Origin: Deltaproteobacteria bacterium
Lineage (GTDB): Bacteria; JAGRBM01; JAHCIT01
DNA length: 64,000 bases
Direction of reading: 5' to 3'
Assembly (NCBI GenBank): GCA_026129095.1
Contig: JAHCIT010000001.1
Coordinates: 1-64,000 of the forward strand
Shown here: positions 12,132-31,502 of the stretch, in pieces
Layout of the letters: every line of letters begins with the position of its first letter
How positions within the stretch are numbered: position 1 is the stretch's first letter
Program-made: the position numbers and the translations under genes
The notes under the pieces: model-generated
Seen by the model: the letters and a program-made list of their open reading frames with translations, nothing else
Databases searched by the model: none
What the model was told of the DNA's origin: nothing

Positions 12132-15100
12132 TCAGGCCTGTTTCCGGCGCCGCCGGATACGTCCTGCCGCTCCCGCGAGCGCCATCACAAGGCCAATCGC
12201 CGCGCCGGGATCCGTGGCACCGGCCGCGCAGCCGCCACCCTTCTTGGTGGGGTTTCCGGGCGTTCCGCCGCCACCACTGCCGCCGCTGCCGGCCGCCAGC
12301 ACGTTGATGAAGAACGGACCGATCGTGGTCGAGCTGGTGCCGTCGGAAACAATGTAGAAGATGTTGTTGTAGAGGCGGATATCCGTCGCTTCCGGCGTTC
12401 CGGACAGAACCCCTGTCGAGCTGTTCAGCGTGAGCCAGTCAGGCTTGTTCAGCATCGTGATCGTCAGGGTGTCGGTTTCCGGATCAGAGATGGTCGGACT
12501 GAAGGAGTACAGCTGGCCCACCACTGCCGCGGAGGCCGGTGTGCCCGTCACGACCGGCGGCTGGTTTATCTCGATATCAAACGAGGGGAGCGCCACCGGG
12601 GCGTTCACGCCGTCCGATATCCAGATGATGATGTTCGTGTACGGGCTGTTCGCCAGATGGGCGGGAACCGAGGACAGCGGTGAGCCGCCTAGCGATCCAT
12701 TGCCCGTCAGGTTGAACGTGCTGCCGTCGCAGGGAGCGCCGGTATCGCCCGCGAAGACTGCCCAAGCCGGCAGGTTCTCGATGCAGAACCGCAGGTCGTC
12801 GTAAGCCTCCGCATTCACGACCGTCGGCGTGAAGCTGTAGGTCCGGTCAAGACCGGCGCGGGGCGCCGGTACGCCGGAAATCACCGGGATCCCGTTCACG
12901 ATGATGGTCAGCGGGTTGACGTAGTAAACCGGATCGAAGTTGCCGTCGGTCACGCCCACCCTGATCTCGTAGGAACCGACATCGGCCGAAGTCAGGCCGC
13001 CCGGGGCGACCGATACCGTTCCGTCGGCCGAGTTGAACACCAGCCAGTCGGGCTGGCCCTGGATCACGAACAGCAGGTTGGCGTTCTCGCCCGGATCGTC
13101 ATCATTGGCCGTCCACTGGATGTTCGCCAGCTCGTCGGTCGTGAGGTCTTCGGCCACAACATAAGACGCCTGGACCATGCCGGTGAAGTTGATCGTCGGC
13201 CGCGAATTCACGATGATCGTGAAGGCCGGGAGCAGCACCGGCTGGTTTACGCCGTCGCTCACCCAGATCCGGATGTCCACGTACGAACCCTGGTCGCCGT
13301 CCACCGGGACCCCGCTGATATTGCCGCTCGTCGCCGGGAGGAAGGCCGGGTAGACGCCAGCGTCGCAGGTGGCCCAGTACGGACAGTTCTCGACGGCGAA
13401 CTCCAGTGCGTCGCCGTCCAGATCATAGACGTCGGGCGTGAATCCGGCCGGCGAGTGGTAATCGCTATTGATCGCCACCATCGTTGCGGGGCCGCCGGAG
13501 ATCACCGGCGGGCTGTTTACGACGATATCGAAGGCTGGCAGGGAGACCGGCGGGTTGATGCCGTCCGTCACCGAGATGACGATGTTCTGGTACGGGCTGT
13601 TGGTGCTGTCGGCACGGATCGGCGTGCCCCACAGGCGGCCCGTTGAAGGGTCGAAGAAGGCCCATGCCGGCTTGTTCGCAATGCTGTAGACAAGCGTGTC
13701 GTCATCCGGATCGGTCGCCACCGGATCAAACGAGTACAGGATGCCCGGATTGGCGACGGTACCCGGCGTGGCCGGGTCGAATACCGGCGGCAGGTTCGGC
13801 CGGATCACAACGACCTCGAAGGCCGCCGAGGCCACCGCCAAGTTCAGCGGATCCTTCACCGAGATCACGATTCCCGAATAGGTGCCGGCGTCGGCGATGC
13901 CGGGGGTTCCCGTCAGGACGCCGGTCGAGGGGTTGAAGCCTGCCCAGGGCGGCCGGTTCTGGATCGTGTAAACGAGCAGCGGTATGTCGCCGGCCTCGAA
14001 GGTGTCGGTTCCGCCCGGATTGCAGGTAAACAGGTTGCCGGCCAGCACGACGTCGTCGCCGCACGGCGTCGTAAAGCTCGGCGGGCCGTTCACGTACAGG
14101 CTCGGAATGACGAGCTGGACCGGATCGTTCACGCCATCGGTCACCTCGATGGTGACATTCAGGCTGGCCACGCCCGCATCCAGGATGCTGGGCGTTCCGC
14201 TGAGGACACCCGTGCTCGGGTCGATGCCCATCCAGCCCGGGTTGTTGATGACCGAGAAGGTAAGCACATCGCCCGCGTCAGGGTCGCTCGCGATCGGCGC
14301 GAACGTGTAGTCCACGCCTGTCGGTATGTTCGCCGGCGAGGTGCCGGAGATCGCCGGCGAACGGTTCACCAGTATGGAGAACGGAGCCAGCTCGACCGGT
14401 GCGAAGTTGCCATCGGTAACGGCGATGATGACGTTCTCGTACAGGCCGCCGTCGCTGGGCAGCGGACGTCCTGGCTGGTTGGTGAGCGCGCCGGTCGTCT
14501 GATTGAACTGGGCCCATGCGGGCAGGTTCTGGACCGACCAGATGAGGGTTTCGCCGTCCGCATCCACCGCCGAGACTGTCGTCGAGTAGGGAGTCAGCGG
14601 GCTCACCGGAACGACAGTCTGCGGGCTGCCAGGCTGAAATGACGGCACGGGCGGCGTGTTCACTATGATCGTGAACGGCCCGATCGACGAGGGGACATTC
14701 GGCAGCACCGCGTCGCGCACCCATATCCGGATGCCCGCATAGGCGCCGCGGTCCCCGGCCGCCGGGGTGCCGCTGATTTCACCGGTACCGGCGGCAAAGG
14801 CCGGGTAAACACCACCGTCGCAGGTGGCCCACGCCGGGCATTCCTCGATGGAGAACTGCATGGCATCGCCATTGGGATCGGTCGCCACCGGCGTGAAGCT
14901 GAAGGGCGAACCGACAGCCGCAAAGGCGGGCGGCACGCCGGAGATCACCGGCGGGCTGTTCACGACGATATCGAACGGCGCCAGCGAGGCCGACTGGAGC
15001 GTCATGGTATCCCGGATCGTGATGATGATGTTCGTATAGGGGCTGTTCGTCGCGTCAGCCACGATCGGCGTTCCGGACAGGGCTCCGGTCGCCGTATTGA

Positions 15101-18100
15101 ACGTCGCCCAGGCCGGCTTGTTGGTGATCTCGTAGGCGACGGGATTGTTCACCGGGCTCGATCCCGTCGGCGTGAACGAGTAGGCCTGACCGGGGACCGC
15201 GAAGGTCGCCGGCGTTCCGCTGATAACCGGATCGCCCGTCACGGTGATCGTGAAGGCCGGGAGCGCGGTCGTCTGGAATCCGTCCGTGACGGAGATCGTG
15301 ATATTCGTGTGGAAGCCCGCGTTGGCCGCCAGCGGCGTGCCGGTGAGCTGGCCCTGTGACGGACTGAACGACAGCCACGAGGGCCGGTTGGTGACCGAAT
15401 AGGTGAGCGTGTCGCCGTCCCCGTCGGTCGCCGTCACAACGAGCCCGGCGGGGTATTCGTACGGCGTTCCGACCGGCACCGAGAGATCCGGCGTGAGGCC
15501 GGCGGCCGTGAACGCCGGACGGCTGTTCACCCGGATATTGAAGTTGAGCGTGTTCGACACGAGGGGGATGGGGTTGCTGGTCCCGTCGTCCGCCTCGATC
15601 TGGATGGCGTAGACGCCGGCGTCGGCATCGCTCGGGGTGCCGGTGATGGCTCCCGTATTCGGGTTGCACAGCGCCCAGGTGGGGCAGGTGCCCAGGAAGT
15701 CGAACACGAGCGTGTCGCCGTTCGGGTCGGTTGCGACCGGCGTGAAGCTGAACGCCGTGTCCGGCACCGCACGCGGGACCGTGCCCGCCGACAGGACCGG
15801 CGCACCGTTCACCTTGATGCTGAACGGGCTGGTGGAAACCACCGGGAACACGTTGTCGGTCACCGAGATCACGATGCCGGTGTAGAGGCCCACGTCCGCA
15901 CCGGTCAGGTTGCCGTTCGAGGTGATCGAACCCGTGAGCTGGTCGAACGAGGCCCAGGCCGGGCGGTTCGTGATCGAGTACAGGACGACGCCGGGCGTGG
16001 GCGTGGGCGTGAAGGTATAGGGCGAGCCCACGTTCACCACATCGGGGTTGGCGGCCGGGGCATCCACCGTGGGCGGCGTGTGCACGATGATGGTGAACAT
16101 CGGGTACGAGACGTACGTCGCGCCGCCGTCGTCGCTCACGCTCACCTCGACGAACTGGTAGGTGCCGCCGTCAGCCAGGACCGGGGTGCCGGTCATGTTG
16201 CCGGTGCCGGGCGCGCAGGCCGGGAAGTCGCCGCCGCCGAAGGTCAGCCACGCGGGGCGGTTCCGGATGCGCCAGCAGAAGGGTGCGGTGTCATCGAAGT
16301 CGAACACCGACGGGGTGTATCCACCCGCGCCGCCGTAGTTGCTTCCGACGGAAACCTGGGTCGGCGGAACCGGTGTGCCCAGCACGGGGAGCGAGTTCAC
16401 GTCGATGCTGAATACGGGGAGCGCCACCGGCGGATTCAGGCCGTCGCTCACCTCGATCACGATGCCGCCATACACGGCCGAATCGAGCTGGCTCGGCGTT
16501 CCGCTGAGGCGGCCCGTCGTGGAGTCGAACAGCGCCCAGGGGGGCTGGTTCGTGATCGCGAAGGTGAGCACGTCGTTTTCAGGGTCGGTCGTCACGGGCT
16601 GGAAGACGTAAGGCTGGTTGGGCTGCGCACGCAGGGCAGGCGTTCCGGAGATCACCGGCGGCGCATTGACCGTGATCGTGAAGGCCGGGAGCGAAACCGC
16701 CGGGTTGTATGGGTCCGCAACGCTGATGACGATGCCGGTGTAGATGCCGCTGTCGGCAGGCGTGGGCGTTCCCGACAGATAACCCGTCGCCGCATTGAAG
16801 GTCATCCAGATCGGCCGGTTCACGATCGAGTAGGCGAGGAAATCGGCTTCCGGATCGGTCGCCAGCGGCAGCGCCACCGGGAACTCGAAGAAGTCGCCCG
16901 CGATGAGCTGCGTATCAGCGGGCGTGTCGTTGAACGCGGGCGGTCCGTTGACCTCGATCGTGTAGCTCACCGGAGCGGTTGTGACCGTTCCGTCAGACAA
17001 TTCGATGTCGAAGGTGTACGAGCCCACGTCCGGAAGGCCCGGCTGGCCGCTGATCGTCCCGGTGGACGGGTTGCAAACCGCCCAGGACGGACACCCGGGG
17101 TTCGAGAAGATGAAGGTGAACGTCTCCGGATTGGCCGGGGGCTGGTGGTTCGGATCGGAGAACGTCGGCGTGAAGGAGTAGTTCACACCCGGCACGGCGA
17201 TGGGCGGCGTCGTCGCCGTCAGGACCGGCGATCCGTTCACCTTGATCGTGAACGGCGGGAGCGAGGCCTCGCCGCCATTGCTGTCGTAAACGGTGATGAC
17301 GATGTTCTCGTACCGGCCGATGTCGGCAACCGACGTGGAGCCCGACAGGGCGCCCGTCACGGTGTTGAACACGGCCCAGGGGGGCTGGTTGTCGATCCGG
17401 TACAGGAGGCCCTGCGGCACACCATCCGGATCGGAAGCGACCGGGGTAAACGTCGGGTAGGCGTTGCCCGCCTGAACGACCGTGGCCGGAATACCGGAGA
17501 TGACCGGCGGCGTGTTGACGACGATGAGGAACCGGAGTTCCACCGGCGGCGAGAACCCGTCGTCCGCATAAAGGATGAACAGGTAGCTGCCGGTATCGGC
17601 CGTCGTGGGCGTGCCGTCGATCAGCACTTCGTACGGGTCGCCGGGGTCCACCGGCGGCGTGACGACCGGGGCGTTCAGCCAGCCCGACTGGTCATCCACG
17701 GTGATGACAAGGGCGTCGCCATCCAGGTCCACGGCGTTGGCAATGAACGTGTACAGGGCGCCCGGCGGAGCCTGGGTGACCGAGGTGGTCGAGATCACCG
17801 GCGGCGCATTGACGCGGATACTGAAGATGAGCGGCGCGGATGCGACGATACCGTCGTCCGCGGTGATCTCGATCCCGGCGTACAGCCCCGAATCGTCCAC
17901 GATGGGAGATCCGGACAGCCTGCCGGTAGCCGTGTCGAAATCGGCCCAGGCGGGGCGGTTCACGATCGAGAAGGTGAGCACGTCTCCCGAGGAATCGACC
18001 GCCGTGGGAGTGAACTCGAATGGCTCGTTCGGACGGATAACTGCGGCGGGCGAACCAGACAGTATCGGCGGCGTGTTCACGCGGATCGAGAACGGATCCA

Positions 18101-21100
18101 GACAGACCGGCAGACTGTTGAAGTCGGTCACGCAGATAACGATATCGTTGTAATTGCCGCCATCTGCAAGGGCAGGAGTGCCGCTCAGGTTCCCGGTGAT
18201 TGTGTCGAACACGGCCCAGGAGGGCTTGTTCGTGATCGAGAACCGGAGCGTGTCGAGCGCCGGGGACTCGGGATCGACCGCGACCGGCGTGAATCCGCCG
18301 CCACCGTTGTACGGATTACCCGCCGACACCAGCGTGTCGGGCGTGCCGCTGATCGTCGGCGGCGTATTCACGACAATGGTGAAGGGGTCGAGGTAGACCG
18401 TCTGGATGCCGTCGGTGACGCCGATCCGGATGCCCACGTAGGTGCCGCGATCGGCCACCAGCGGCGTGCCGGACAGTTCGCCCGTTACCGGGTTGATGCT
18501 CAGCCACGACGGGATATCCGTACCGACGAAGGTCAGCGTGTCGAGCGGATCAATGTCCCATCCGAAGAACGTGTACGAATAGGGAACGGCGATATTGGCG
18601 ATGCCCGGCGGATCACCCTCGATATAGGGCAGCGTGTTCACGATGATGGAGAACGGCCCCAGCACATACGGCGCGTTGACGCCATCGGAAACCGAAATGG
18701 TGATGTTGCTTTCGACGCCATAGTCCACCGCGCCCGGCACGCCATACAGGCGGCCGGTCGTGTAGTCGAAGAAGGCCCAGCTCGGCTTGTTCACGATGTC
18801 ATACGTGAAGGGCCGGTTCGGATTCTGCGGATGGGCGTTCGTATCCGGCAGGAACGAGTATTCCTCGTTCGTGTTGGCGATGGCCGGCGGGATGCCGCTC
18901 AGGGTTGGCGGCGTGCGGGTCAGGTCCACCGACAGCGCCGCGCTGATCTGGAACTGGTTCACGCCGTCCGTCACGGTCAGGATGTACCCGCCCGTTCCAA
19001 AGTGCCCGCCGCCCGGTTGACAGGTGATCGTATTGATCCCGGCGTTCAGCGTCACCATCTGCGGAAGCGAAACATTCTGGAAATCATGCGAGTAGCTCTG
19101 GCCGGTCACCGTCACGCCGTCGCCCTCAAGATCGTTAATGATATATGTGACGACCGTCGGCACATACCGGGGACAGGCGAGATCCGGCCACGGCGATGTG
19201 AAGGTGAGCTGGGGCGTTCCGTTCACGTATACGGAGAAGGGCGCGGATAGCGTCGTGTTGTAACCATCGGTCACCTGAATCTGGATGTTGCTATAGGTGT
19301 TACCGGCTTCCGAGGCGGGCGCATTGGACGCCACCAGGAAGTTGATGAACCCGCCGGACGTTTGCTGCACCAGCGGGGTCATGAACGTCGGAGCATTCAC
19401 CAGCGACATCGTGAGCTGGCTGCGGGCATTATCCGGGTCATCGATGGTAACCGGGTATTGCCTTGGTTGCCCGTCGGTCGGAACCTGTGCCGGAGCAGCA
19501 AACGATACCGCCGGAGGAGCGTTCACCACCAGCCGGATCGGCGTGATTGGAACGACGAAGTTTCCGTCCGTCACGTTGATCTCGATCAGGTAGAGTCCGG
19601 TTTCGTCGATAAAGGCGTTCAGGACCGGAGTTCCGGAGATTTCGCCCGTCTCGGAGTTGATCGCGAGCCAGGTCACCGTGTCGTCCGAGAACAGGAGATC
19701 GGCCACTGGAGCGACGAGTGGATCCGTATAGGACGACCCGCCCCGAACTCCCGTGATCTCGCGGACCTGGAGCGAGAAAGCGAGGATGTCACCGTCCACA
19801 TCGCCCGACGCCGGCGTGAAGCTGAACAGCACGTTCGGCGGGATAATCGGCACCGGAGCGCCGCTGATCGTCGGCGGCGAATTCACGATGATGAAGAACG
19901 GCGGGAGCGTCACGTTGTAGTTGCCGTCGGTGACGCCGATGACGATTCCTTCGTACTTGCCTTCGGGTGTTGCACCACCGCCGTCGTCCGTAATCTCGCC
20001 CGTGGCCGGGTTGAACAGCGCCCAGGACGGCAGGTTCTGCACGGTGAACACCAGCACATCGGCCGGATCCAGATCGAAGGCGGTGGGGGCGAACGAGTAG
20101 GGATCGCCCGTTGCCACCTGCGTGACGGGTGCCGGCGCTTCCAGGATCGGGGGCATGTTCACCCGGAGCGTGAATGGCGCCAGATTCACCGGACCTGCGA
20201 CTCCGTCGGAGACCGAAATCTCGATCAGGTAGTCGCCGCGATCCGCAGCGATCGGCGTGCCGTAAAGCTGGCCGGTCGCCGTGTCGAAATTCGCCCATTC
20301 CGGACGGTCCACGATGGCGAAACTGTAGGCCGACGAATCGCCACCCGTCGCCGCCGGCTGGAAGCTGTAGAGCTGCCCCGGAACCGCCAGAAGGTCGGGG
20401 GTGCCGCTGATCTGGAGCGGTGCACGAACCGTCACAGTGAAGCTGGAAGTACAGACCGGCGCGCCAAACCCGTCGGAAACGCAGATCGCGAAGGTCGAGC
20501 TGGTGCCGCCAAATCCGGCTGGATCGCCGGAGAGGAGTCCCGTCGCCGGTACGAATGCCGCCCAGGCCGGCAGGGTGCCCGTGAAGGAATAGGTCAGGAC
20601 ATCCAGTTCCGGGTCGGTGGCATCGTTGGCCGGGAATAACACCGTCGCACCGGCGGCATCAGACAGGATGACGTTCACCGGGCTTGCGGTCGCAAACGAC
20701 GGGGCGCCGTTCACCTCGATGTCGAACGGGGCAAGCGACACCCAGTTCGCGCCGCCATCATCGCTGACGCGGATTTCGACGTTGTTGTAGGTGCCGGTAT
20801 CGGCCTGTGTCGGATTGCCGGTCAGCGCGCCGGTATTGACATCAAACGCGGCCCACGCCGGCAGGTTCAGGACGCTGAATACCAGCGCGTCGCCATTCGG
20901 ATCGCTGGCAGTCGGCGTGAAGCTGTAGGCCGAGCCCGCACGGACGAACCCCGCCGGGGTGCCGCCAATAACGGGATCGCCGTCGATCTTGACGGTGAAC
21001 GCACCAAGCGCAACGGCCGGATTGATACCATCCGAAACGCTGATGATGATGTTGGTGAAGTTGCCGATCTGGGCCGCCGGAGCCGGACCGCTGGTGAGCG

Positions 21101-24100
21101 CACCGGTCGTCGTGTCGAAGTTGGTCCATGAGGGCTGGTTCGCGATGGACCAGATCAGCGTGTCGCCATCCGGGTCGGTAGCGTTCACTGCCACCGCGAG
21201 GTTGTTGCCCGGATCAACCGAATAGACGGTATTCGGCTGGAGCGTGATGTCCGGCGGGTTGTTCAGGCTGACGGTGATGATGACCGTCGCGATGTCTGTT
21301 CCGTCGTCCAGGTCGAACTCGACGTTCCAGTCGGGACCAATATCCCAGTCAGCAAGCGTTGGCGTGCCGGAAATGGTGCCGGTCAGCATGTTGCAGACGG
21401 CCCACGGCGGGCAGTTGCGGAGATCATCAATGACGACCGTGTCCCCGTTCGGGTCACTGATCGCCGGCGTGAAGGTGAACAGGAACCCCGGCCGGGCCAG
21501 CGACGGCTGATTCGTGATGGTCGCCAGGCCGTTCACGATGATGGAGAAGGACGCCATCGTCACCGGGGCGTTGATGCCGTCGGTCACTGTGATCGTCACG
21601 TTCAGGTAGTTCCCGATTTCGGCTGCAGTTACCGGGGCGCTGGTGAGCGCGCCCGTCGTACCATTGAAACTGGACCAGGGCGGCTGGTTGGTGATGGTCC
21701 AGGTCAGGGTATCGCCATCCGTGTCGTTGGCCGTGGCGGTGAAGTTCAATGAATCGCCCACGGAGAGCGCAATCACGCCCGGCGACGGGACCGTGAACAC
21801 CGGCGGATCGTTCACCAGGATATCGAAAGCGGGCAGGTCGACGGTCGTCACGCCGCCGTCGTCGCTCACGCTGATGATGATGTTGCTATAGGTTCCGGCA
21901 TCGGCCAGCGAGGGTATGCCACGCAGTTCGCCGGTTGCCGCGTTGAAGGTCGCCCAGGGCGGCTGGTTCTGGATCGAGAACGTGAGCGTATCGTTGTTAA
22001 CATCACTCGCCGTCGGCGTGAACGAATAGAGCGAGCCCGGAGTCACCAGCGTGGGCGGGTTGCCGGAGATCACCGGCAGGCCGTTCACCCTGATGTCCAG
22101 GGTTTTCGAAACCGATCCGCCATTGCCGTCGTTCGCCGTCACGACGACGCCGTTGTAGTTCCCGGCCACATTCGCAGTCGCTGTTCCCTGCGCGTAGATG
22201 AGCCCCAGCGACGAATCGAAGCTGGCCCAGGCCGGCAGATTCGCCACCGTGTAGACGAGCGGGTCTCCGTCGTCGTCCAGCGCGTAAGGCTCGGCAAGGT
22301 CAACTACGAAAGATTCGTAAGGATCGCCCGCCTGGATCGCCGTGATGTCCGTGTAGAAGGGGTTAAAATACGGCGCCGAGTTGACGATGATGGTGAACGG
22401 ATTGAGGTAGACCGTGGGCGTGATGCCGTCCGAAATGGAAACCTGGATGGCGTAGGATCCGTTATCGGCACCACCGGCGTCCGGAGTGCCATCAATGGCG
22501 AACAGGTAAACCCCGCCCGGAGTCGGATTACCGGGGTAGGGATCCAGCATCGCCCATCCCGGCGTCGTCACCTGGACGTTCAGTGCATCGCCATCCGCAT
22601 CGACTGCCGAAATAATGATCCATACCGGATCTCCCGGCGTGACCATGACCATGCCCGATACCAGCGGATGGGAGTCGGACAGTATATCCCCCGTCGGCTG
22701 CGAATTGACCGTCAATGTGAACACGAGCGGAGCCGAGGTCAGGCCGCCGCTGTCGGTGGCGGTGATCTCGATGCCCGCGTAGGTGCCGCCGTCATCCACG
22801 ATGGGCGTTCCCGACAGGGTGCCGGTCGTCTCGTCGAAGAACGCCCATTCAGGTTTGTTCGTGATGGCGAAGGTAAGCGCATCGCCGTTGGGATCGTTCG
22901 CCACGGGAGTGAAGGTGAACGGCTGGTTCGGCCGCAGTTCGGTCACCGGCGTTCCGGTCAGCACCGGCGAGCCGTTCACGTGGATCGAGAACGGCGCCAG
23001 CGACACGGGCGCGAAGTTGCTGTCGGTCACCGAGATGATGATGTTGCCGTAAGTGCCGGCATCGCCCTCGCCCGGTGTTCCGGTCAGCGCGCCGGTGAAC
23101 TCGTTGAAATCGGCCCAGGGCGGCTTGTTCTGGACCGAATAGAGGAGCGGTGTCAGGCCCGGTGCGTTCGTGTAGGCCGACACCCGGTAGACATCATCCG
23201 CCGTGAAGACGGCGCCGCCCGAGAGCGCCGGGTTCAGCGTGAGGTCCGTCGCCGCGATGCCGCCCGCGTCGATGACGCTGGAGGCGGACGGATCAACGCT
23301 CAGGTTCTCCACCAGGTCGCCGGCCGCGAGCACCGGCGAGAGCGCGGTGAAATCAATGCCGGTGTCTTCCAGCGTCGTGGCCGAGCCGCCCGTGGCAAGG
23401 CCGGAGAAGATGCCGTCCGGATCGTTCACGACCGGGACAAACAGCGGATACGGATCGCCCGCGTTGACCGAGGCGGCTGGTGCCAGCGGCGCGGTGATGA
23501 CCGGCGGCTGGTTCACGATGATCGTGAACGGCGGGAGCGAGACGGTTTCCGGGCCCGCGCTGTCCTGGACCGACAGCACGATGTCAACAAAGCTGCCGCC
23601 CGACGTCGGCGCGATGTTGGTGACCGTTCCGGTGACGGGGTTCAGCGATGCCCACGGCGGCAGGTAGTTCACCGTCCAGGCGAGCACGTCGCCCTCCGGA
23701 TCGAAGGCGGTCACGGTGCTGGAGTAGCCGCCGGCGAGGACGCCCTGCAGCACCGAGATCACCGGCATGCCCGCCGGGAACGATGGCACCGGCAGGCTGT
23801 TCACGCGGATATTGAACGCGCCAAGGCTGACCGGCGTGTTCGTTCCGTCGGTCACCGTGATGTTGATGCCGTTGTAGTCGCCCGCGTCGATCTGGAGCGG
23901 CGTGCCCGAGATGTTGCCGTTGCCGGGATCGAACAGGGCCCACGGCGGCAGGTTCACGACCGAGTAGGTGAGATCGTCAGCCTCCGGGTCGGTCACCGCC
24001 GGCGTGAAGGAGTACAGCACACCGGGATAGGCGCGGGTTTCCGGCGTGCCGCTGATTGCCGGCGGGCCATTGACCGAGATGCTGAACGGCGCGAGCGAGA

Positions 24101-27100
24101 CGGGCGCATAGACGTTGTCGGTCACTGAAATGATGATGTTGGTGTAGGTGCCCGCGTCGGCGGCCGTGGCTGTACCGGTGATGGAGCCCGTCACGGTGTT
24201 GAAGGTCATCCACGGCGGCAGGTTCTGCACGGAGAACGAGAGCGGGTCGAGATCCGGATCGTTCGTCACCGGCGTGAAGGTGTAAAGCACACCCACTCCG
24301 GCGGTGGGATTCGGGATGCCGGAAATCGTGGGCGGACTGTTCACGGTGACCGTGAAAGCCGCCAGCGACACGGCCGGCCAGTACGGATCCTGGACCGTGA
24401 TGATGACGTTCGCATAGGAGCCGGTCACCGTCACCGGGTTGCTGCACAGTTCCCCCGCGCCGCAGGGTGCGCCGTCGAAGGCCGCCCAGGCTGGTAGGTT
24501 GCTGATCGAATACACCACCGGGTCGCCGTCCGGGTCGAGCACGTCGGGCGTGAACGAGTACGGCTGGCCCGCGCCGATGAACAGCGTGGGGGCGCCGGAG
24601 ATCGAAGGCGGCGAGTTGACGCGGATCGAGAAGGGCGCAAGCGAGACGGGCGAGTTATTCCCGTCGCTCACCGAAATGACGATACCGGCGTAGTTGCCCG
24701 AATCGGCCTGCGTCGGGTTGCCGGTGAGCGCGCCGGTGGCCGTGTCGAACGTGGCCCATGCCGGACGGTTCGTGATGGAGAACACCAGGACATCGGCATC
24801 CTGGTCGACGGCCGTGGGCCTGAACTCGTACGCATCGCCCGGCCGCACGAGCGTCGCGGGGGTGCCCGTCAGTGACGGCCGGTTGTTCTGGCCGATATAG
24901 AGGGCGCCGTCGCTCAGGCGCTGGTAGAGCTTGCGGGCCGCCGGCATCGTGATGTTGATGCCGCGGCTCACCTTGCCGGCCTGCACCGCCACCACGCCGG
25001 GGCGGGTAACATCGTTGTGGATGCTCCGGCTTGCGCCGGTGGTCACTCCGGCGGGGCACTCCGCGTCGGAGGCGATCCGGTAGTAGTCGCCGGCGGCGAA
25101 CGACTGGCCGCCCGACAGGGCGCCCGAGAAGCTGATGACGTTCTGGGTGATTCCGGCAACGGCGATCGTCGAATCGCCCAGCACGGCCGTCGAACCGACC
25201 TTCTCGACCAGCATGCCGTCGGCAATTCCAGTCGTGGTGAAGTCGCGGCTCGTGTCGATGAGGGTCAGCGTCGAGCCTCCCGTGGCAATGCCGGTGATGC
25301 CGTCACAGGGCAGTTCCACGCGGTCCGGACTGCCAAGGTCAACCGTATCGACCCGCTCGAAAACGCCGCCCGGGCTGCCGCTGTACAGGTCGCCCGAATC
25401 AAGGCTGACCGCGCTGGAGTATCCGCGTCCGCTCACCTTCGCGAGATACGAACGGACCACCTGCGAGACGTCCCCGACACTGCCGTCGAGGTCCATCGCA
25501 AACACCAGGTATTTGGCCGTGCCCTTGCCGGGATTCACCGGGAGGCCCGAGATGAGGTAGCAGCCCGAACCGCCCGTCGAGGCAATCGTCGGATCCGGGT
25601 CGGAAAACTCATGTACGCCATCCGTACGGGTGGGGAACTCAAGATCGATTTCCAGCGGGTCGATGGCGAGCGTGCGGATCGCATGGCAGCGGGCCGCCAC
25701 AGCGGGATCGGCCGGGTGACCGAAGTTCGTGCCGGATACCGCTTCCTTGTATTCGCGGCAGTAACGGTGAACGGCGCTGTCCGGGTCCACGGGCGCGCCG
25801 GTCAGCGAGCCCACCACGTCACGCTCGGCGAGCGGCTGGTATACCGAGTTCTCGTCGGAGTTGCGGCCGTCGATTTCGACCGCAACGATGCTGAGGCCGT
25901 GCACGGGATCGCCGTTGGCGTCCCGCACGCAACCGGCGATGGCGGCGGTTCCGCCGATGACTCCGTCCACGATCTCGTAGCTGTCACCATTGATGAACTG
26001 GTTGACCGTGCCGCCAACCAGCCCGTTCACGATGATCACGCTGCCGGACACGTATTCAACCGTGCCCCACGACCTGTCGGTCAGGTTGTGGACCGCATCG
26101 CCAGGCGCGACGCCGGCAAGGCCGAAGTCTTTTGACAGATCAAACAGGAACCGGGTGTTGGGGAACGAGGTGATGAACGGGGGAGTGTCGTCAATCACCG
26201 CATAGCGCTGCCCGCCCTGCCAGACGTTCGATGATCCGCCAGTGAGCGGTCCCGCCAGAGTCAGCCGGTCGCTGGCAATCACCGCGATGACGCCCGAGGA
26301 ACCATCGGTGATATTGTACAGGCGGTCGCCGATGTTCAGCCCGGCAATGGAGGTGAAGTCCGACTGCGAATCGGCGATCATGACGGTCGTGCTCGCGCCA
26401 CCCGGGAAATCGCCGGTAATTTCATACTGGTCGCCCGGCTGGAAGTTGATGACCGTCCCGCTGCAGCGGACATAGGACGTCCCAACCGCTGTCACGGTGC
26501 AGGAGAGCCCCTGCGTGACATTCCGGAGAGTGGCGCCCATCGGCACCCCCGACGCCGAGAAACTGGCCGCCGCATCCCACAGTTCGTTGGAGACGCCGCT
26601 CGTGGTGGTGATGTTGGGGCCAACCAAACGGAACTGGTTCAGCCGGTTCCAGACGTTCGATGTGCCTCCGGAAAGACCGGCGACCATCTGCACCGTGTTC
26701 CCGTATGCCGGAGCCGAAAGAACCGTGCCCGAGGAACCATCGGTCACGTTCTGGACGATATCCCCCGGACTGACGCCCACCGCGAAGAAGTTGACCGTGG
26801 TTGAGGTCAGGTCGCCGGTCGCACCGGGCCCGGAGATGTTGTTCCCGATAATCCGGTAGCTGTCGCCTGCCAGCCAGCCCGACGGCAGGTTCGTGTGGGT
26901 GATGGACGAAAAGGGCGTCAGCGGAGCAACCGTCACTGTCGCCTGCTCACCGGTGGTTTCGTTGATCACCAGGTCGCCCGCAGCAACGGAGCCGAACGGA
27001 TTCAGAGGATCCACGAGCGAGGTCGCCGTGCTGGCAGCGTCCGCCAGTCCACGCATGTGGGGCAGATGAACCCCCGTCGACACGCCATCGGCCGTGCCGG

Positions 27101-28730
27101 CAATGATGCCGAGCGTCCGGCCCGTGATGCCGTTCCGGGCAGAGTTGGTGTTGCGCAACGTTCCGTAGATGCGGAAGCTGTCGCCCGCCACGAAGATGTC
27201 GGCCGTCAGCGTGAGCTGCGTTGCGGCGACCGCCGTAACGTCGGTCTGGGCGCCGGTGGTCTCGTTCACCACCACGTCGCCAACCCGGACGCCAACCCGC
27301 GTGAAATCCCACCCGAACACGTTGTATTCGAGTGCACTCGCCACCGTCGCCGTTGCATTCCCCTGCAGGTCGTTCAGGACCGTACCGGGATACATCATCA
27401 GCATGGCGGCCTCGTCGTCGGCTTCCAGTATCCGGATCAGGCTGTTCTGGTCGCGGGGAAAATCCTCCCGGATCGGGAACATGGAGGGCTGCATGAACTC
27501 GTTCTCGGCCGCGAAGATGGGCGAGTGGTCAAGCCCCATCGCCAGACCCATCGCCTGCGTCAGCAGTCCTTCCATTCCGGCCGAGAAACCCGAATCGATG
27601 GTGGAAAGCGCCGTCGCCGTGACCAGGATATCCGCGTCCCGGATCACGCCATGCGCCATGCCGCGGGCGCGGCCGGAAATGTTCCGGACGCCGTCCCTGT
27701 CCACCGCGGGGAGGACCACCATCATCACTCCGGACGGAAGGTTCAGCTCCTGGCCGATGGATCCCGTGGAATCGTCGTACACGATCTGGCTGATTCCGTC
27801 GGCCGGGTTCAGCGCGAAGCCGAGATCCACGTCGTGATGGTCGATGTCGTAAATACTGGTGCCACCCGCGCCGCCGATCACAAAGTAGTCGTCGGTTCCC
27901 CGCAGCGGGAGCCGTTCCCAGTAAAGGTCGGAGGGGTCAAACACCGTGATGTTGGGGGTCACCGCCGGATTGAAGTCGAACTGGCTGGCAGAACTGATCT
28001 GGCCGGCGAAATCGCCGTCGCACGGATGCATGTCCGCATGGGTGAACATGAAACCGACACGGGTGGGGCCGGCTGTCCCCAAGCTGCCGACACCGTTCGG
28101 GCTGTCGCCGCTCCGCTGGGTCTGGACTTCGTTCCAGGTGCTCATCGCCACCAGCGCGGCGCGAATCGGCCCGACAATGCTCGTTTCGGTCGTGGACCGG
28201 AGGATGATCCGGTACCCGCTGGACGAATTCAGCGGATCAATCGCCTGCTCGGTGATCGACAGTTCGGGGCAGCGGAACCCCGCGCTCTGGTTCGAGTCGA
28301 TCACGTAGGTCACCACCGGGCCATCCACCTGCGACTGCCGCAGGTAGGAGCCACCGGGCGTGAGGACCGGAGCGGTCCGGCCATCGCGCCTCATGTAGGC
28401 GACCGGGTTGTGGAACTGGCTGGCAGGATCGTCGGGATCGAGCGGGAAGCCTTTGCCGTAAACCATCTCGAGGCCCTGGCCACCGGTGGCATTGCTGGCA
28501 GTCACCGGATAGATGCCCGGAGCCGACTGCCCCCGCACCGTGTCGGCGAGCCGGTCCCACCGCATCATGAGGATGCCGTCGGTATCCGGGTCGGCGTCGC
28601 AGCGGGTCGAGGCCGGATCGCAGAAGAATGCCTTCTGAACCCAGCCGGACGCCGGATCGGGGCGCGAGCCGACCGATACCAGCGCGACAGCCGCCGCCAG
28701 TGCAAGATACGCAGATATACGCTTCATCAT
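12132..28730 (-). CDS. Giant secreted protein, 5,532 residues: pseudo-matrixin domain, novel repeat modules, 43 Ig-like (He_PIG) repeats, sorting tail
   Basis: A single uninterrupted gene. After a signal peptide (about 1-24), residues 100-450 look like a matrixin (PVVTYVIDSNQSAG, ALVAMSTWNEV), but the zinc motif is QAMGLAMGLDHS (392-403), lacking the first two histidines and the glutamate. Residues 470-940 hold six copies of a module with the pattern GDxVxNxTdG...GDxYRI; two more copies occur at about 1165-1220 and inside Ig repeat 6. Residues 1284-5480 contain 43 repeats of about 97 residues with the pattern YSFTP-DPNGD-LTFSI-NxPxWA-F-TGxLSGTP, the putative-Ig (He_PIG) type. A Gly-rich linker, C5501, a hydrophobic stretch and RIRRRR end the protein, like MYXO-CTERM tails. 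AGGAAGGA precedes the ATG. A 219-residue secreted protein is encoded 48 bp upstream. A surface adhesin or filament role is inferred. Confidence 0.93.
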   Translation of the reverse strand: MMKRISAYLALAAAVALVSVGSRPDPASGWVQKAFFCDPASTRCDADPDTDGILMMRWDRLADTVRGQSAPGIYPVTASNATGGQGLEMVYGKGFPLDPDDPASQFHNPVAYMRRDGRTAPVLTPGGSYLRQSQVDGPVVTYVIDSNQSAGFRCPELSITEQAIDPLNSSSGYRIILRSTTETSIVGPIRAALVAMSTWNEVQTQRSGDSPNGVGSLGTAGPTRVGFMFTHADMHPCDGDFAGQISSASQFDFNPAVTPNITVFDPSDLYWERLPLRGTDDYFVIGGAGGTSIYDIDHHDVDLGFALNPADGISQIVYDDSTGSIGQELNLPSGVMMVVLPAVDRDGVRNISGRARGMAHGVIRDADILVTATALSTIDSGFSAGMEGLLTQAMGLAMGLDHSPIFAAENEFMQPSMFPIREDFPRDQNSLIRILEADDEAAMLMMYPGTVLNDLQGNATATVASALEYNVFGWDFTRVGVRVGDVVVNETTGAQTDVTAVAATQLTLTADIFVAGDSFRIYGTLRNTNSARNGITGRTLGIIAGTADGVSTGVHLPHMRGLADAASTATSLVDPLNPFGSVAAGDLVINETTGEQATVTVAPLTPFSSITHTNLPSGWLAGDSYRIIGNNISGPGATGDLTSTTVNFFAVGVSPGDIVQNVTDGSSGTVLSAPAYGNTVQMVAGLSGGTSNVWNRLNQFRLVGPNITTTSGVSNELWDAAASFSASGVPMGATLRNVTQGLSCTVTAVGTSYVRCSGTVINFQPGDQYEITGDFPGGASTTVMIADSQSDFTSIAGLNIGDRLYNITDGSSGVIAVIASDRLTLAGPLTGGSSNVWQGGQRYAVIDDTPPFITSFPNTRFLFDLSKDFGLAGVAPGDAVHNLTDRSWGTVEYVSGSVIIVNGLVGGTVNQFINGDSYEIVDGVIGGTAAIAGCVRDANGDPVHGLSIVAVEIDGRNSDENSVYQPLAERDVVGSLTGAPVDPDSAVHRYCREYKEAVSGTNFGHPADPAVAARCHAIRTLAIDPLEIDLEFPTRTDGVHEFSDPDPTIASTGGSGCYLISGLPVNPGKGTAKYLVFAMDLDGSVGDVSQVVRSYLAKVSGRGYSSAVSLDSGDLYSGSPGGVFERVDTVDLGSPDRVELPCDGITGIATGGSTLTLIDTSRDFTTTGIADGMLVEKVGSTAVLGDSTIAVAGITQNVISFSGALSGGQSFAAGDYYRIASDAECPAGVTTGASRSIHNDVTRPGVVAVQAGKVSRGINITMPAARKLYQRLSDGALYIGQNNRPSLTGTPATLVRPGDAYEFRPTAVDQDADVLVFSITNRPAWATFDTATGALTGNPTQADSGNYAGIVISVSDGNNSPVSLAPFSIRVNSPPSISGAPTLFIGAGQPYSFTPDVLDPDGDPVVYSISNLPAWAAFDGAPCGAGELCSNPVTVTGSYANVIITVQDPYWPAVSLAAFTVTVNSPPTISGIPNPTAGVGVLYTFTPVTNDPDLDPLSFSVQNLPPWMTFNTVTGSITGTATAADAGTYTNIIISVTDNVYAPVSLAPFSISVNGPPAISGTPETRAYPGVLYSFTPAVTDPEADDLTYSVVNLPPWALFDPGNGNISGTPLQIDAGDYNGINITVTDGTNTPVSLGAFNIRVNSLPVPSFPAGMPVISVLQGVLAGGYSSTVTAFDPEGDVLAWTVNYLPPWASLNPVTGTVTNIAPTSGGSFVDIVLSVQDSAGPETVSLPPFTIIVNQPPVITAPLAPAASVNAGDPYPLFVPVVNDPDGIFSGLATGGSATTLEDTGIDFTALSPVLAAGDLVENLSVDPSASSVIDAGGIAATDLTLNPALSGGAVFTADDVYRVSAYTNAPGLTPLLYSVQNKPPWADFNEFTGALTGTPGEGDAGTYGNIIISVTDSNFAPVSLAPFSIHVNGSPVLTGTPVTELRPNQPFTFTPVANDPNGDALTFAITNKPEWAFFDETTGTLSGTPIVDDGGTYAGIEITATDSGGLTSAPLVFTLTVNSQPTGDILSDSHPLVSGMVMVTPGDPVWIIISAVDADGDALNVQVTTPGWAMLDPYPGNPTPGGVYLFAIDGTPDAGGADNGSYAIQVSISDGITPTVYLNPFTIIVNSAPYFNPFYTDITAIQAGDPYESFVVDLAEPYALDDDGDPLVYTVANLPAWASFDSSLGLIYAQGTATANVAGNYNGVVVTANDGNGGSVSKTLDIRVNGLPVISGNPPTLVTPGSLYSFTPTASDVNNDTLTFSIQNQPPWATFNAATGELRGIPSLADAGTYSNIIISVSDDGGVTTVDLPAFDILVNDPPVFTVPSPGVIALSVGDSLNFTATANDTDGDTLTWTITNQPPWSSFNGTTGALTSAPVTAAEIGNYLNVTITVTDGINAPVTMASFSIIVNGLATITNQPSLARPGFLFTFTPAISDPNGDTVVIDDLRNCPPWAVCNMLTGTISGTPTLADWDIGPDWNVEFDLDDGTDIATVIITVSLNNPPDITLQPNTVYSVDPGNNLAVAVNATDPDGDTLIWSIANQPSWTNFDTTTGALTSGPAPAAQIGNFTNIIISVSDGINPAVALGAFTVKIDGDPVIGGTPAGFVRAGSAYSFTPTASDPNGDALVFSVLNLPAWAAFDVNTGALTGNPTQADTGTYNNVEIRVSDDGGANWVSLAPFDIEVNGAPSFATASPVNVILSDAAGATVLFPANDATDPELDVLTYSFTGTLPAWAAFVPATGLLSGDPAGFGGTSSTFAICVSDGFGAPVCTSSFTVTVRAPLQISGTPDLLAVPGQLYSFQPAATGGDSSAYSFAIVDRPEWANFDTATGQLYGTPIAADRGDYLIEISVSDGVAGPVNLAPFTLRVNMPPILEAPAPVTQVATGDPYSFAPTAFDLDPADVLVFTVQNLPSWALFNPATGEITDDGGGATPEGKYEGIVIGVTDGNYNVTLPPFFIIVNSPPTISGAPVPIIPPNVLFSFTPASGDVDGDILAFSLQVREITGVRGGSSYTDPLVAPVADLLFSDDTVTWLAINSETGEISGTPVLNAFIDETGLYLIEINVTDGNFVVPITPIRLVVNAPPAVSFAAPAQVPTDGQPRQYPVTIDDPDNARSQLTMSLVNAPTFMTPLVQQTSGGFINFLVASNAPASEAGNTYSNIQIQVTDGYNTTLSAPFSVYVNGTPQLTFTSPWPDLACPRYVPTVVTYIINDLEGDGVTVTGQSYSHDFQNVSLPQMVTLNAGINTITCQPGGGHFGTGGYILTVTDGVNQFQISAALSVDLTRTPPTLSGIPPAIANTNEEYSFLPDTNAHPQNPNRPFTYDIVNKPSWAFFDYTTGRLYGVPGAVDYGVESNITISVSDGVNAPYVLGPFSIIVNTLPYIEGDPPGIANIAVPYSYTFFGWDIDPLDTLTFVGTDIPSWLSINPVTGELSGTPLVADRGTYVGIRIGVTDGIQTVYLDPFTIVVNTPPTISGTPDTLVSAGNPYNGGGGFTPVAVDPESPALDTLRFSITNKPSWAVFDTITGNLSGTPALADGGNYNDIVICVTDFNSLPVCLDPFSIRVNTPPILSGSPAAVIRPNEPFEFTPTAVDSSGDVLTFSIVNRPAWADFDTATGRLSGSPIVDDSGLYAGIEITADDGIVASAPLIFSIRVNAPPVISTTSVTQAPPGALYTFIANAVDLDGDALVITVDDQSGWLNAPVVTPPVDPGDPYEVLIDGTPTTADTGSYLFILYADDGFSPPVELRFLIVVNTPPVISGIPATVVQAGNAYPTFTPVASDPDGVPQGLLYRIDNQPPWAVFNTVTGALSGSTSVADIGRYENIVITVYDSNGGEASLPPFTIKVNGSPVLTATTPPIAVPGVNYSFTPTFSDPNHQPPANPETFTFIFSNPGCPSWAVCNPSTGTISGQPGLPDVGSYTFDIELSDGTVTTAPVSYTIEVNGPPAFNDTPADTQLIAGDFFEFPVALPLATDPEADFLAYSIVNRPIWMTFNAATGYLSGTPTPADSGIYTGIVISVADPYNPAVSLPAFTITVNAPPVISGTPALRAQPNQPYVFQPVTTDPENDVLTFAITNQPPWALFDSTTGRLSGTPSQLDSAVYGGIVIEVSDGLNPPVALPVFSIDVNSLPVLGTPVPPTQVSVGSNYGGAGGYTPSVFDFDDTAPFCWRIRNRPAWLTFGGGDFPACAPGTGNMTGTPVLADGGTYQFVEVSVSDDGGATYVSYPMFTIIVHTPPTVDAPAANPDVVNVGSPYTFTPTPTPGVVLYSITNRPAWASFDQLTGSITSNGNLTGADVGLYTGIVISVTDNVFPVVSTSPFSIKVNGAPVLSAGTVPRAVPDTAFSFTPVATDPNGDTLVFDFLGTCPTWALCNPNTGAITGTPSDADAGVYAIQIEADDGTSNPIPLVSNTLNFNIRVNSRPAFTAAGLTPDLSVPVGTPYEYPAGLVVTATDGDGDTLTYSVTNRPSWLSFSPSQGQLTGTPLAANAGFHTNITISVTDGFQTTALPAFTITVTGDPVISGTPATFAVPGQAYSFTPTGSSPVNNPVAYEITNKPAWATFNTATGALSGTPIVADATNSPYTNIIITIRDTMTLQSASLAPFDIVVNSPPVISGVPPAFAAVGSPFSFTPVATDPNGDAMQFSIEECPAWATCDGGVYPAFAAGTGEISGTPAAGDRGAYAGIRIWVRDAVLPNVPSSIGPFTIIVNTPPVPSFQPGSPQTVVPVSPLTPYSTTVSAVDADGETLIWSVQNLPAWAQFNQTTGALTNQPGRPLPSDGGLYENVIIAVTDGNFAPVELAPFSILVNRSPAISGTSPANIPTGVDYTFAPIASDPDAGDVLTFSVINNPGWMGIDPSTGVLSGTPSILDAGVASLNVTIEVTDGVNDPVQLVIPSLYVNGPPSFTTPCGDDVVLAGNLFTCNPGGTDTFEAGDIPLLVYTIQNRPPWAGFNPSTGVLTGTPGIADAGTYSGIVISVKDPLNLAVASAAFEVVVIRPNLPPVFDPATPGTVANPGILYSFDPVATDPDDDTLVYSIANKPAWAFFDPSTGRLWGTPIRADSTNSPYQNIVISVTDGINPPVSLPAFDIVVNSPPVISGGPATMVAINSDYHSPAGFTPDVYDLDGDALEFAVENCPYWATCDAGVYPAFLPATSGNISGVPVDGDQGSYVDIRIWVSDGVNQPVLLPAFTIIVNSRPTINFTGMVQASYVVAEDLTTDELANIQWTANDDDPGENANLLFVIQGQPDWLVFNSADGTVSVAPGGLTSADVGSYEIRVGVTDGNFDPVYYVNPLTIIVNGIPVISGVPAPRAGLDRTYSFTPTVVNAEAYDDLRFCIENLPAWAVFAGDTGAPCDGSTFNLTGNGSLGGSPLSSVPAHLANSPYTNIIIWISDGVNAPVALPSFDIEINQPPVVTGTPASAAVVGQLYSFSPTISDPETDTLTITMLNKPDWLTLNSSTGVLSGTPEATDIRLYNNIFYIVSDGTSSTTIGPFFINVLAAGSGGSGGGGTPGNPTKKGGGCAAGATDPGAAIGLVMALAGAAGRIRRRRKQA
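12135..12290 (-). other. C-terminal sorting-like tail of the giant protein (Gly linker, Cys, hydrophobic helix, Arg cluster)
   Basis: The last 52 residues are a Gly/Ser/Pro linker, KKGGGCAAG with a lone cysteine, a hydrophobic stretch AIGLVMALAGAAG and then RIRRRRKQA. This order (Cys, membrane segment, Arg cluster at the extreme end) is that of MYXO-CTERM and similar bacterial C-terminal sorting signals, which lead to surface anchoring. The exact MYXO-CTERM consensus is not fully matched. Confidence 0.6.
12291..24881 (-). repeat. 43 tandem Ig-like (He_PIG-type) repeats within the giant gene
   Basis: Counting conserved junctions of the type VNxPPxIsGtP gives 43 units averaging about 293 bp (97 residues). 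The units are diverged from each other at DNA level but share the order YxFTPxaxDpdGD, LxFSIxNxPxWAxFdxxTGxLsGTP, DxGxYxxIxIxVsDG and FxIxVN. Some are longer because of insertions: repeat 6 contains a foreign module, and repeats 18, 35, 40 and 42 have extra loops. Confidence 0.85.
25970..27305 (-). repeat. Six tandem copies of a second repeat module within the giant gene
   Basis: Six units of about 45-75 residues share the pattern DF-G-GDxVxNxTdGssGtV, then LxLxgxLxGG, then GDxYRIxg. Clear examples are VGDVVVNETTGAQTDV to AGDSFRIYG, and PGDIVQNVTDGSSGTV to NQFRLVG. Two more copies lie at about 25074-25230 and 23170-23350. I do not recognise this module as a named domain. Confidence 0.7.
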
Positions 28731-28778
28731 GGCTAGTTCCTTCCTGGTTCAGGGGGACTTTCCATACCCCCTGGCAGG

Positions 28779-29705: not shown

Positions 29706-31502
29706 ATGGCTCCCATCATCGGCATTGACCTCGGCACCTCGAACACCTGTTTCGCCTTCCATGACGGCGGGAAGGTAACAGTGGTGCCCGCCGTTGACGG
29801 AAAGAACACCATGCCGTCGGTCGTCCACCGGACCACCGACGGCAAATGGATTACCGGCGCACCGGCGCTGAGATATCTCGGAACGGCGCCGGAGCGGACC
29901 TTCACGGCGGTGAAGCGGCTTGTCGGGCGGCGGTTCCTGCCGCAGGAACTGGCCGCTGTCCAGCCACAGTTCGGCTACCGGCTCGTCAGCGGTCCCGACC
30001 GGGAACCGCTGGCGGAAGTGAACGGCGAGCGGTTGCGCCTCGAGGAGATCCAGGCGGTGCTGCTCTCGGAGGTGAAGTCCCGGGCCTCGGATGTGGCCGG
30101 CGAGGAGGTCCGGGAAGCGGTCCTGACCGTGCCCGCCTTTTTCACCGAGAAACAGCGGGCCGCACTCAGGGATGCCGGCCGCATTGCGGGCCTGCTGGTC
30201 CGCAAGATCGTGAGCGAGCCGACGGCCGCCGCCGTGGCCTACGGCCTGGGGCGCGGCGCGAACAAGCGGGTGCTCGTCTTCGACCTGGGCGGTGGCACGT
30301 TCGACATCACGGTGATCGAGGCGAAGGAAGGCAACTTCACCGTCATCGCCACCGACGGCGACACGCAGCTGGGGGGCGAGGATTTCGACAACCGGCTGGT
30401 GGACTACCTCGCCGACCTGTTCCTGAAGAAATACCCCGGCATCGACCTCCGCAAGGATCCCGCGTCGAGGGCCCGCGTCAAGGAGGCCGCCGAGCGGGCC
30501 AAGTGCGAGCTCTCGACCGCCAAGCAGTCGGCCATCAACCTGCCGTTCATCACCGTCATCGATGGCCAGCCGGTGCACTTCGAGGGCGAGGTGACGCGAA
30601 GCCTGCTGGAAGGCACCACGGACATGCTGGTCCTGAGAGCCGTGAAGATCGTCGAGCGGGTGCTCGCCAACCAGAACCTGAAAAAGGAGAACCTGGACGA
30701 GATCCTCATGGTGGGCGGCATGACCCGGATGCCGAAGATCCTCGCCACGGCAGAGAAGGTTCTCGGGCGGCCGCCCTCCCGCGGCGTCAATCCGGACGAG
30801 GCGGTCGCCATCGGCGCGGCGACGATCGGCCAGTGGATCAGCGAGGCGGGGTCCAGGCACCGGCTGACCGATGTGGTGCCGCTTCCGCTCGGTCTCACCG
30901 CCGCCGGCAACAGGATGAGCGTGCTGATCGACCGGAACACGCCGACACCGGCCGAGGCGAAGAAGGTCTTCACCACCAGCCGGGACGGGCAGGACCGGAT
31001 CAAGATTCACGTGCGGCAGGGCGAGCACCCCGAGGCCACCCAGAACGAACTGCTCGGCGCGTTCAATCTGATGCTGAGCGAGCCGGGCCCCAAGGGCACG
31101 GCAAAGATCGAGGTCGAGTTCAGGCTGGACGATTCGGGCATCCTCACCGTGGCGGCCCACGACACGGCCACCGGCTCGAAGCAGGAAGTGGTCATCGAGC
31201 CGGGCGGCGAGACGGACACCAGCGGCGTCGCCGACAACTTCGAGTCGGCCCGGAACCGCATGGCCCGTTTCGGGGCCATCCGGAAACAGCTTGAACAGGT
31301 GGAAGAGCTGATCCGCAGCTTCTCGCAGAACATCCAGAAGAAGGACCGCGACGATATCGAGGAAAAGCTCCGCCGGGCGCGGGCGGCCATCGTGCTGAAC
31401 GACCTCGCCCGGGCCGAGACGCTGGTCAAGTCGGTCGGCGATGCGGCCATGAAGTTCTACGAGCGGCTCGATGCGGCCAGCAGCAGCGGCGCTCCCGCCT
31501 GA
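29706..31502 (+). CDS. Hsp70-family chaperone (DnaK paralogue), 598 residues
   Basis: An ATP-dependent chaperone of the Hsp70 family. The ATPase domain shows [14 protein letters not shown] (5-18), [14 protein letters not shown] (141-154), [10 protein letters not shown] (171-180), [12 protein letters not shown] (191-202) and [11 protein letters not shown] (335-345). The substrate-binding beta domain is about 385-510, and a shortened helical lid runs to a Ser/Gly/Ala end without the acidic DnaK tail. DnaK is usually about 640 residues, so this is a slightly short paralogue. No grpE or dnaJ is adjacent; a canonical dnaK probably lies elsewhere. It is divergent from the giant-protein operon and upstream of comEC by 127 bp. 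Confidence 0.9.

Follow-up and report, generated by a model that had tools for sequence, protein, structure and literature searches.

The Ig-like domains of phages (Fraser et al. 2006) are small all-beta accessory domains found in many classes of tail proteins, and one of them sits between the strands of a tail tube protein; an accessory role in surface contact has been proposed for them (PMC9022992). Domain mosaicism is well documented for tail proteins (PMC10684548). More generally, domain insertion is described as a common architecture in a survey of families serving as inserted modules (PMC13114784). Here we analysed a stretch of 64,000 nucleotides from a deltaproteobacterial draft genome (contig JAHCIT010000001.1, positions 1 to 64,000; hereafter the window), in which a module of this kind interrupts a repeat of a giant gene. 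The phage Ig-like domains are its closest analogue in behaviour, as the module is also a small all-beta accessory domain occurring across tail proteins. Unlike them, the module is modelled as a small barrel; its sequence matches no Ig family, and it extends to surface proteins of bacteria and archaea. It further differs from the inserted-module families of the survey (PMC13114784) in that its family lies outside Pfam, PHROGs and NCBIfam. The repeats that surround it resemble, in sequence (PF05345) and in fold, the He_PIG/cadherin-like repeats of bacterial adhesins such as SraP, with the difference that repeat 6 alone holds an inserted module.

All the modules of the window are carried by a single open reading frame on the minus strand. 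Its product comprises a signal peptide (recognised by eye), an N-terminal region, eight modules of ~70 aa, 43 cadherin/He_PIG-like repeats and a MYXO-CTERM-like tail. A Pfam match to PF05345 (He_PIG) was obtained on repeat 1, and structure comparison of the host fold returned cadherins and the cadherin-like region of SraP; the match of the C-terminal tail to MYXO-CTERM was weak (18.5 bits against a cut-off of 20). The giant protein would be a surface-anchored adhesin. The features on which the analysis bears are the following:

12132-28730, minus strand: giant open reading frame of 5532 aa, carrying all modules of the window
25965-27362, minus strand: head modules 1-6, arranged in series, with a spacer of ~37 aa between modules 1 and 2
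25071-25292, minus strand: module 7 (aa 1147-1220), isolated amid other sequence, closest kin of module 8
12288-24893, minus strand: array of 43 cadherin-like repeats spanning aa 1280-5481, of which 42 lack a module
22977-23513, minus strand: host repeat 6 with its insert (aa 1740-1918)
23412-23513, minus strand: 5' half of repeat 6 (NQPPVI...VVNDPDG; aa 1740-1773), 17.2 bits, pLDDT ~79-93
23154-23411, minus strand: whole insertion in repeat 6 (~86 aa, aa 1774-1859), placed from the alignment gap, edges within 1-2 codons on either side
23178-23402, minus strand: module 8, the nested core, placed from profile matches and modelled by AlphaFold2 (pLDDT 95.2, pTM 0.83)
22977-23153, minus strand: 3' half of repeat 6 (TPLLYSVQNKPPWA...FSIHV; aa 1860-1918), pLDDT mostly >90

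The sequence-only reading had placed a copy of the module inside repeat 6, at 23170-23430. The insertion itself was confirmed, as the copy lies in frame on the minus strand, is matched by the module profile and splits its host repeat; the position was essentially right, with boundaries slightly shifted relative to the actual ones (~23154-23411). The host sequence breaks off after NDPDG and picks up again at TPLLYSVQNKPPWA, the frame being kept throughout (PVVNDPDG at 23412-23435 and LLYSVQNKPPWA at 23112-23147, minus strand). Because ~86 residues interrupt it, repeat 6 is 179 aa long, compared to a median of 94 aa (range 89-120) for the other 42 repeats. A repeat HMM built from these 42 repeats of the giant gene matched both sides of the insert, with 17.2 bits for the 5' half and 82.1 bits for the 3' half, and alignment of repeats 5-7 with other repeat triplets opened a single clean gap, located between DPDG and TPLLYSV. 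As a global aligner misplaces the modules in a joint repeat-module alignment, repeat and module were folded separately. AlphaFold2 run on the triplet alignment modelled host strands with confidence before the insert (pLDDT ~79-93) as well as after it (mostly >90); in the joint model of repeat and module, the pLDDT of the insert itself fell below 50 because the alignment rows do not cover it. The possibility that the segment is an integral part of the repeat, named in the sequence-only reading, was tested against the 42 paralogous repeats, all of which lack the segment, and in other host genes. No orthologue of the giant gene was found: the phylum is represented by two genomes in the set, the other one having neither a match to the N-terminal region nor the module, and a genome scan with the N-terminal 1280 aa yielded 20 pattern matches and no relative. 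The insertion in the giant gene was judged against the 42 uninterrupted paralogous repeats only. There is good support for repeat 6 being interrupted by a complete foreign module.

The identity of the insert was established with two profiles. The profile of modules 1-7 gave it 31.2 bits, against 12.9 bits for the highest-scoring of 2,000 shuffles and at most 3.6 bits for the other 42 repeats. An HMM built from the phage-contig copies alone found all eight window modules in place (i-E of 1e-4 for the insert). Shuffle controls matter for this second search because its composition bias was high; none of 200 shuffled whole proteins was matched. The match of module 8 to the family profile spans the full ~70 positions and, when modelled with the alignment of its relatives, it forms a small beta-barrel with the scores given above; module 8 is thus predicted with high confidence to fold as a separate domain. 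The family is uncatalogued: no significant match to the module was obtained in Pfam (best Gp77, 13.7 bits against a cut-off of 27) or in PHROGs (best E 0.025), and NCBIfam returned none with either a consensus-like copy or the N-terminal 1280 aa as the query. Sequence searches of the PDB yielded no match with the phage-type profile and chance-level matches only with the broad profile, and a literature search with module sequence strings found none. The structural matches listed for the module model are mostly barrels. The best solved one covers residues 394-470 of the tailspike depolymerase of Acinetobacter phage Solidus (PDB 24qj; Z 9.1, 72 residues at 2.2 A), although the two share 14% identity and no sequence-profile match. 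The model also resembles small barrels of other phage tail proteins, the Mystique tail tube (9n71, 106-178), the Chi tail tip (8vjh, 236-310) and T5 pb9, with Z-scores of 5.6-6.6, a range in which F1-ATPase and other unrelated barrels score too.

The sequence-only reading had considered the modules within one gene, a frame that turned out to be too narrow, as the module is also spread over the tail proteins of phages and the surface proteins of cells. In IMG/VR, whose contigs are predicted to be viral and may in some cases be cellular, we found 78 module loci with 104 copies in 86 ORFs. These ORFs fall into 49 host clusters by blastp, a number that remote homology between hosts may bring down when converted into host families. 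One of the phage-contig hosts is a tail fibre whose N-terminus is of the T7 type; others are a pectate-lyase tailspike, a major tail protein and a phrog_5302 tail protein. The module is also present in Eisenbacteria, WOR-3, Planctomycetota, Gammaproteobacteria, candidate-phyla bacteria, Elusimicrobia and Thermoplasmatota archaea, these named genomes being metagenome bins of which single assignments may be wrong. Bacterial and archaeal hosts comprise beta-helix proteins, multihaem c-type cytochromes (NCBIfam) and a protein with a VWA domain (recognised by eye). Because it is found within many unrelated phage tail and cellular surface proteins, the module behaves as a widely re-used insertion domain. 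A tblastn search of plasmid and phage collections with one module gave no match, and no phage match was obtained for one of the host tail proteins (locus L061). In five loci (L134, L137, L138, L141 and L152) the module lies between the haem-binding motifs of long multihaem c-type cytochromes. Six others (L131, L132, L147, L149, L154 and L145) encode one beta-helix protein common to bacteria and Thermoplasmatota archaea, in which as many as two nested modules occupy fixed places, L145 being devoid of the first.

Within its genome, the module was found in the giant gene alone. Of ~110 modules compared, module 8 is the best match to module 7 and vice versa, with a score of 125 compared to 84 and 104 for the next best matches and a similarity z of 14, and they have an extra segment in common. 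The insert had been paired, from the letters alone, with a copy at about 25074-25270, and this pairing held (25071-25292); however, that copy is not a head module but the seventh, isolated one, outside the six serial head modules. At the DNA level, modules 7 and 8 align well over a 21-bp leader only (19/21), and their synonymous similarity is at background: codons are the same at 19 of 33 identical residues, compared to 15.4 expected (P = 0.13). Since synonymous codons match at background only, the copying of one module into the other would be old. The earlier claim of domain shuffling within one gene has the mutual best match and the common segment in its favour, whereas the synonymous sites are saturated and the module tree, with its long branches, gave no resolution. 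Shuffling of module 8 within the giant gene, from module 7 or the reverse, therefore has support that falls short of proof.

We favour, with a probability of about 0.8, the reading that a complete, independently folding beta-barrel of ~75 aa has been placed in frame within a loop of one cadherin-like repeat, that it would stem from an old copying event between modules 7 and 8, and that it would serve as an accessory surface domain. Within this adhesin-like protein, module 8 is most likely an inserted accessory domain. It would be an old copy of module 7, or the reverse, made within the giant gene by a rare in-frame event of illegitimate recombination. The loop would have accepted it without the host fold being broken, as the repeat still closes around the module. 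The module may project sideways from the long cadherin-like stalk and have an accessory role at the surface, in ligand contact or in spacing, in the way supposed for the Ig-like domains of phage tails. Alternatively, module 8 might have an outside origin of its own, such as a phage tail gene, and resemble module 7 through a shared source. The frequency of the family in phage-derived contigs fits such an origin, as do modules 3, 5 and 6, which are closer to phage copies than to one another, and the synonymous sites, which give no support to recent intragenic copying. However, the mutual best match of modules 7 and 8 and the extra segment common to both argue against separate acquisition, which is in our view unlikely.

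The nesting itself could be disputed by reading the region as three units in series, first a truncated repeat, then a module and then a full repeat. Global aligners can indeed pair the last strand of the module and the linker with the start of a repeat, and TNAPGLTPLLYSV is a faint echo of TNDPDLDPLSFSV. Nevertheless, the stretch NQPPVI...VVNDPDG is itself matched as a repeat start by the repeat HMM, both halves of the repeat are modelled with confidence, and a serial arrangement would strip the barrel of the last strand of the module, which belongs to the barrel in the model. We thus regard a serial arrangement as very improbable and retain the nested one.

Hosts with and without the module at one site were then compared. 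The tail protein of locus L072 is interrupted by the module at a site that the homologue in Methanosarcina virus MetMV crosses without a break. Five more comparisons among the fetched loci gave aligned flanks and a subject without the module: L089/L059, L067/L112, L068/L064, L135/L139, and the beta-helix proteins, in which five bacterial or archaeal proteins with the module were compared to L145 without it. In total, six comparisons revealed homologues lacking the module at the same site, all in hosts other than the giant gene; for the beta-helix protein of L143, the search for module-free homologues returned a module match only. No clear target-site duplication was seen at the junctions inspected, and copies of the module in unrelated hosts share ~60% of their bases (5-95%: 54-66%). 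The history of the module is one of domain gain and loss over long times and not of recent mobility. Among the copies compared, there were no near-identical DNA copies at unrelated sites. That several hosts have or lack the module at one and the same site, and that its distribution over phages, bacteria and archaea is patchy, might suggest a mobile DNA element spreading in frame by its own mechanism. This is most improbable, and both an intein and a mobile element were rejected, given the low base identity, the junctions without clear duplication, the confinement of the module to one gene of the genome, and an insert of 86 aa, too small for a nuclease or an intein. An assembly artefact can be practically dismissed, even though the genome is a draft of 23 contigs, because the frame is open throughout, the module residues are well conserved and the DNA has diverged from every other copy. 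The MetMV homologue (L157, 1001-2470) carries another insertion of ~75 aa at a different site ('...ALAIGQKLVITGTTNNNATVTVKAIVSPTKITV...'), perhaps a second insertion module.

Beyond the giant gene, it is conceivable, though doubtful, that a dedicated insertion module has been moved, largely via phages, into the loops of cadherin-like repeats, beta-helices, VWA domains, multihaem cytochromes and tail fibres across bacteria, archaea and their viruses, providing each host protein with the same kind of added surface. Although domain insertion itself is common, it is unusual for one small domain to turn up within so many unrelated folds, to be shared between the tail proteins of phages and the surface proteins of cells from two domains of life, and yet to have no entry in the main family libraries. 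Its description would improve the annotation of phage tail proteins, in which the module stretch now reads as unknown. As natural host pairs with and without the module exist, its role and what makes a loop accept the domain become testable.

Several minor observations were made on the giant gene and its surroundings. Repeat 18 (19524-19883, aa 2950-3069) reaches 120 aa and includes an extension of ~25 residues that has no match to the module. In the N-terminal region, EGLLTQAMGLAMGLDHSPI (27516-27572) recalls by eye the zinc-metallopeptidase motif HExxHxxGxxH minus its first histidine; it has no Pfam match. Two plus-strand ORFs oppose the giant gene, at 16080-19250 (1056 aa) and 26895-28736 (613 aa); neither has a Pfam match and they look like by-products of a GC-rich coding sequence. 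A second giant protein of the same genome is encoded on contig C17 (locus L025), in a frame of 4293 aa that joins cadherin-like repeats to an RHS/YD-repeat core. Finally, a minus-strand ORF at 29640-31793 matches PF10712 (NAD-GH; E 2.6e-71) and lies opposite an Hsp70/DnaK gene on the plus strand (29706-31502; PF00012, E 3e-156); the Pfam family PF10712 probably rests on antisense ORFs of dnaK.
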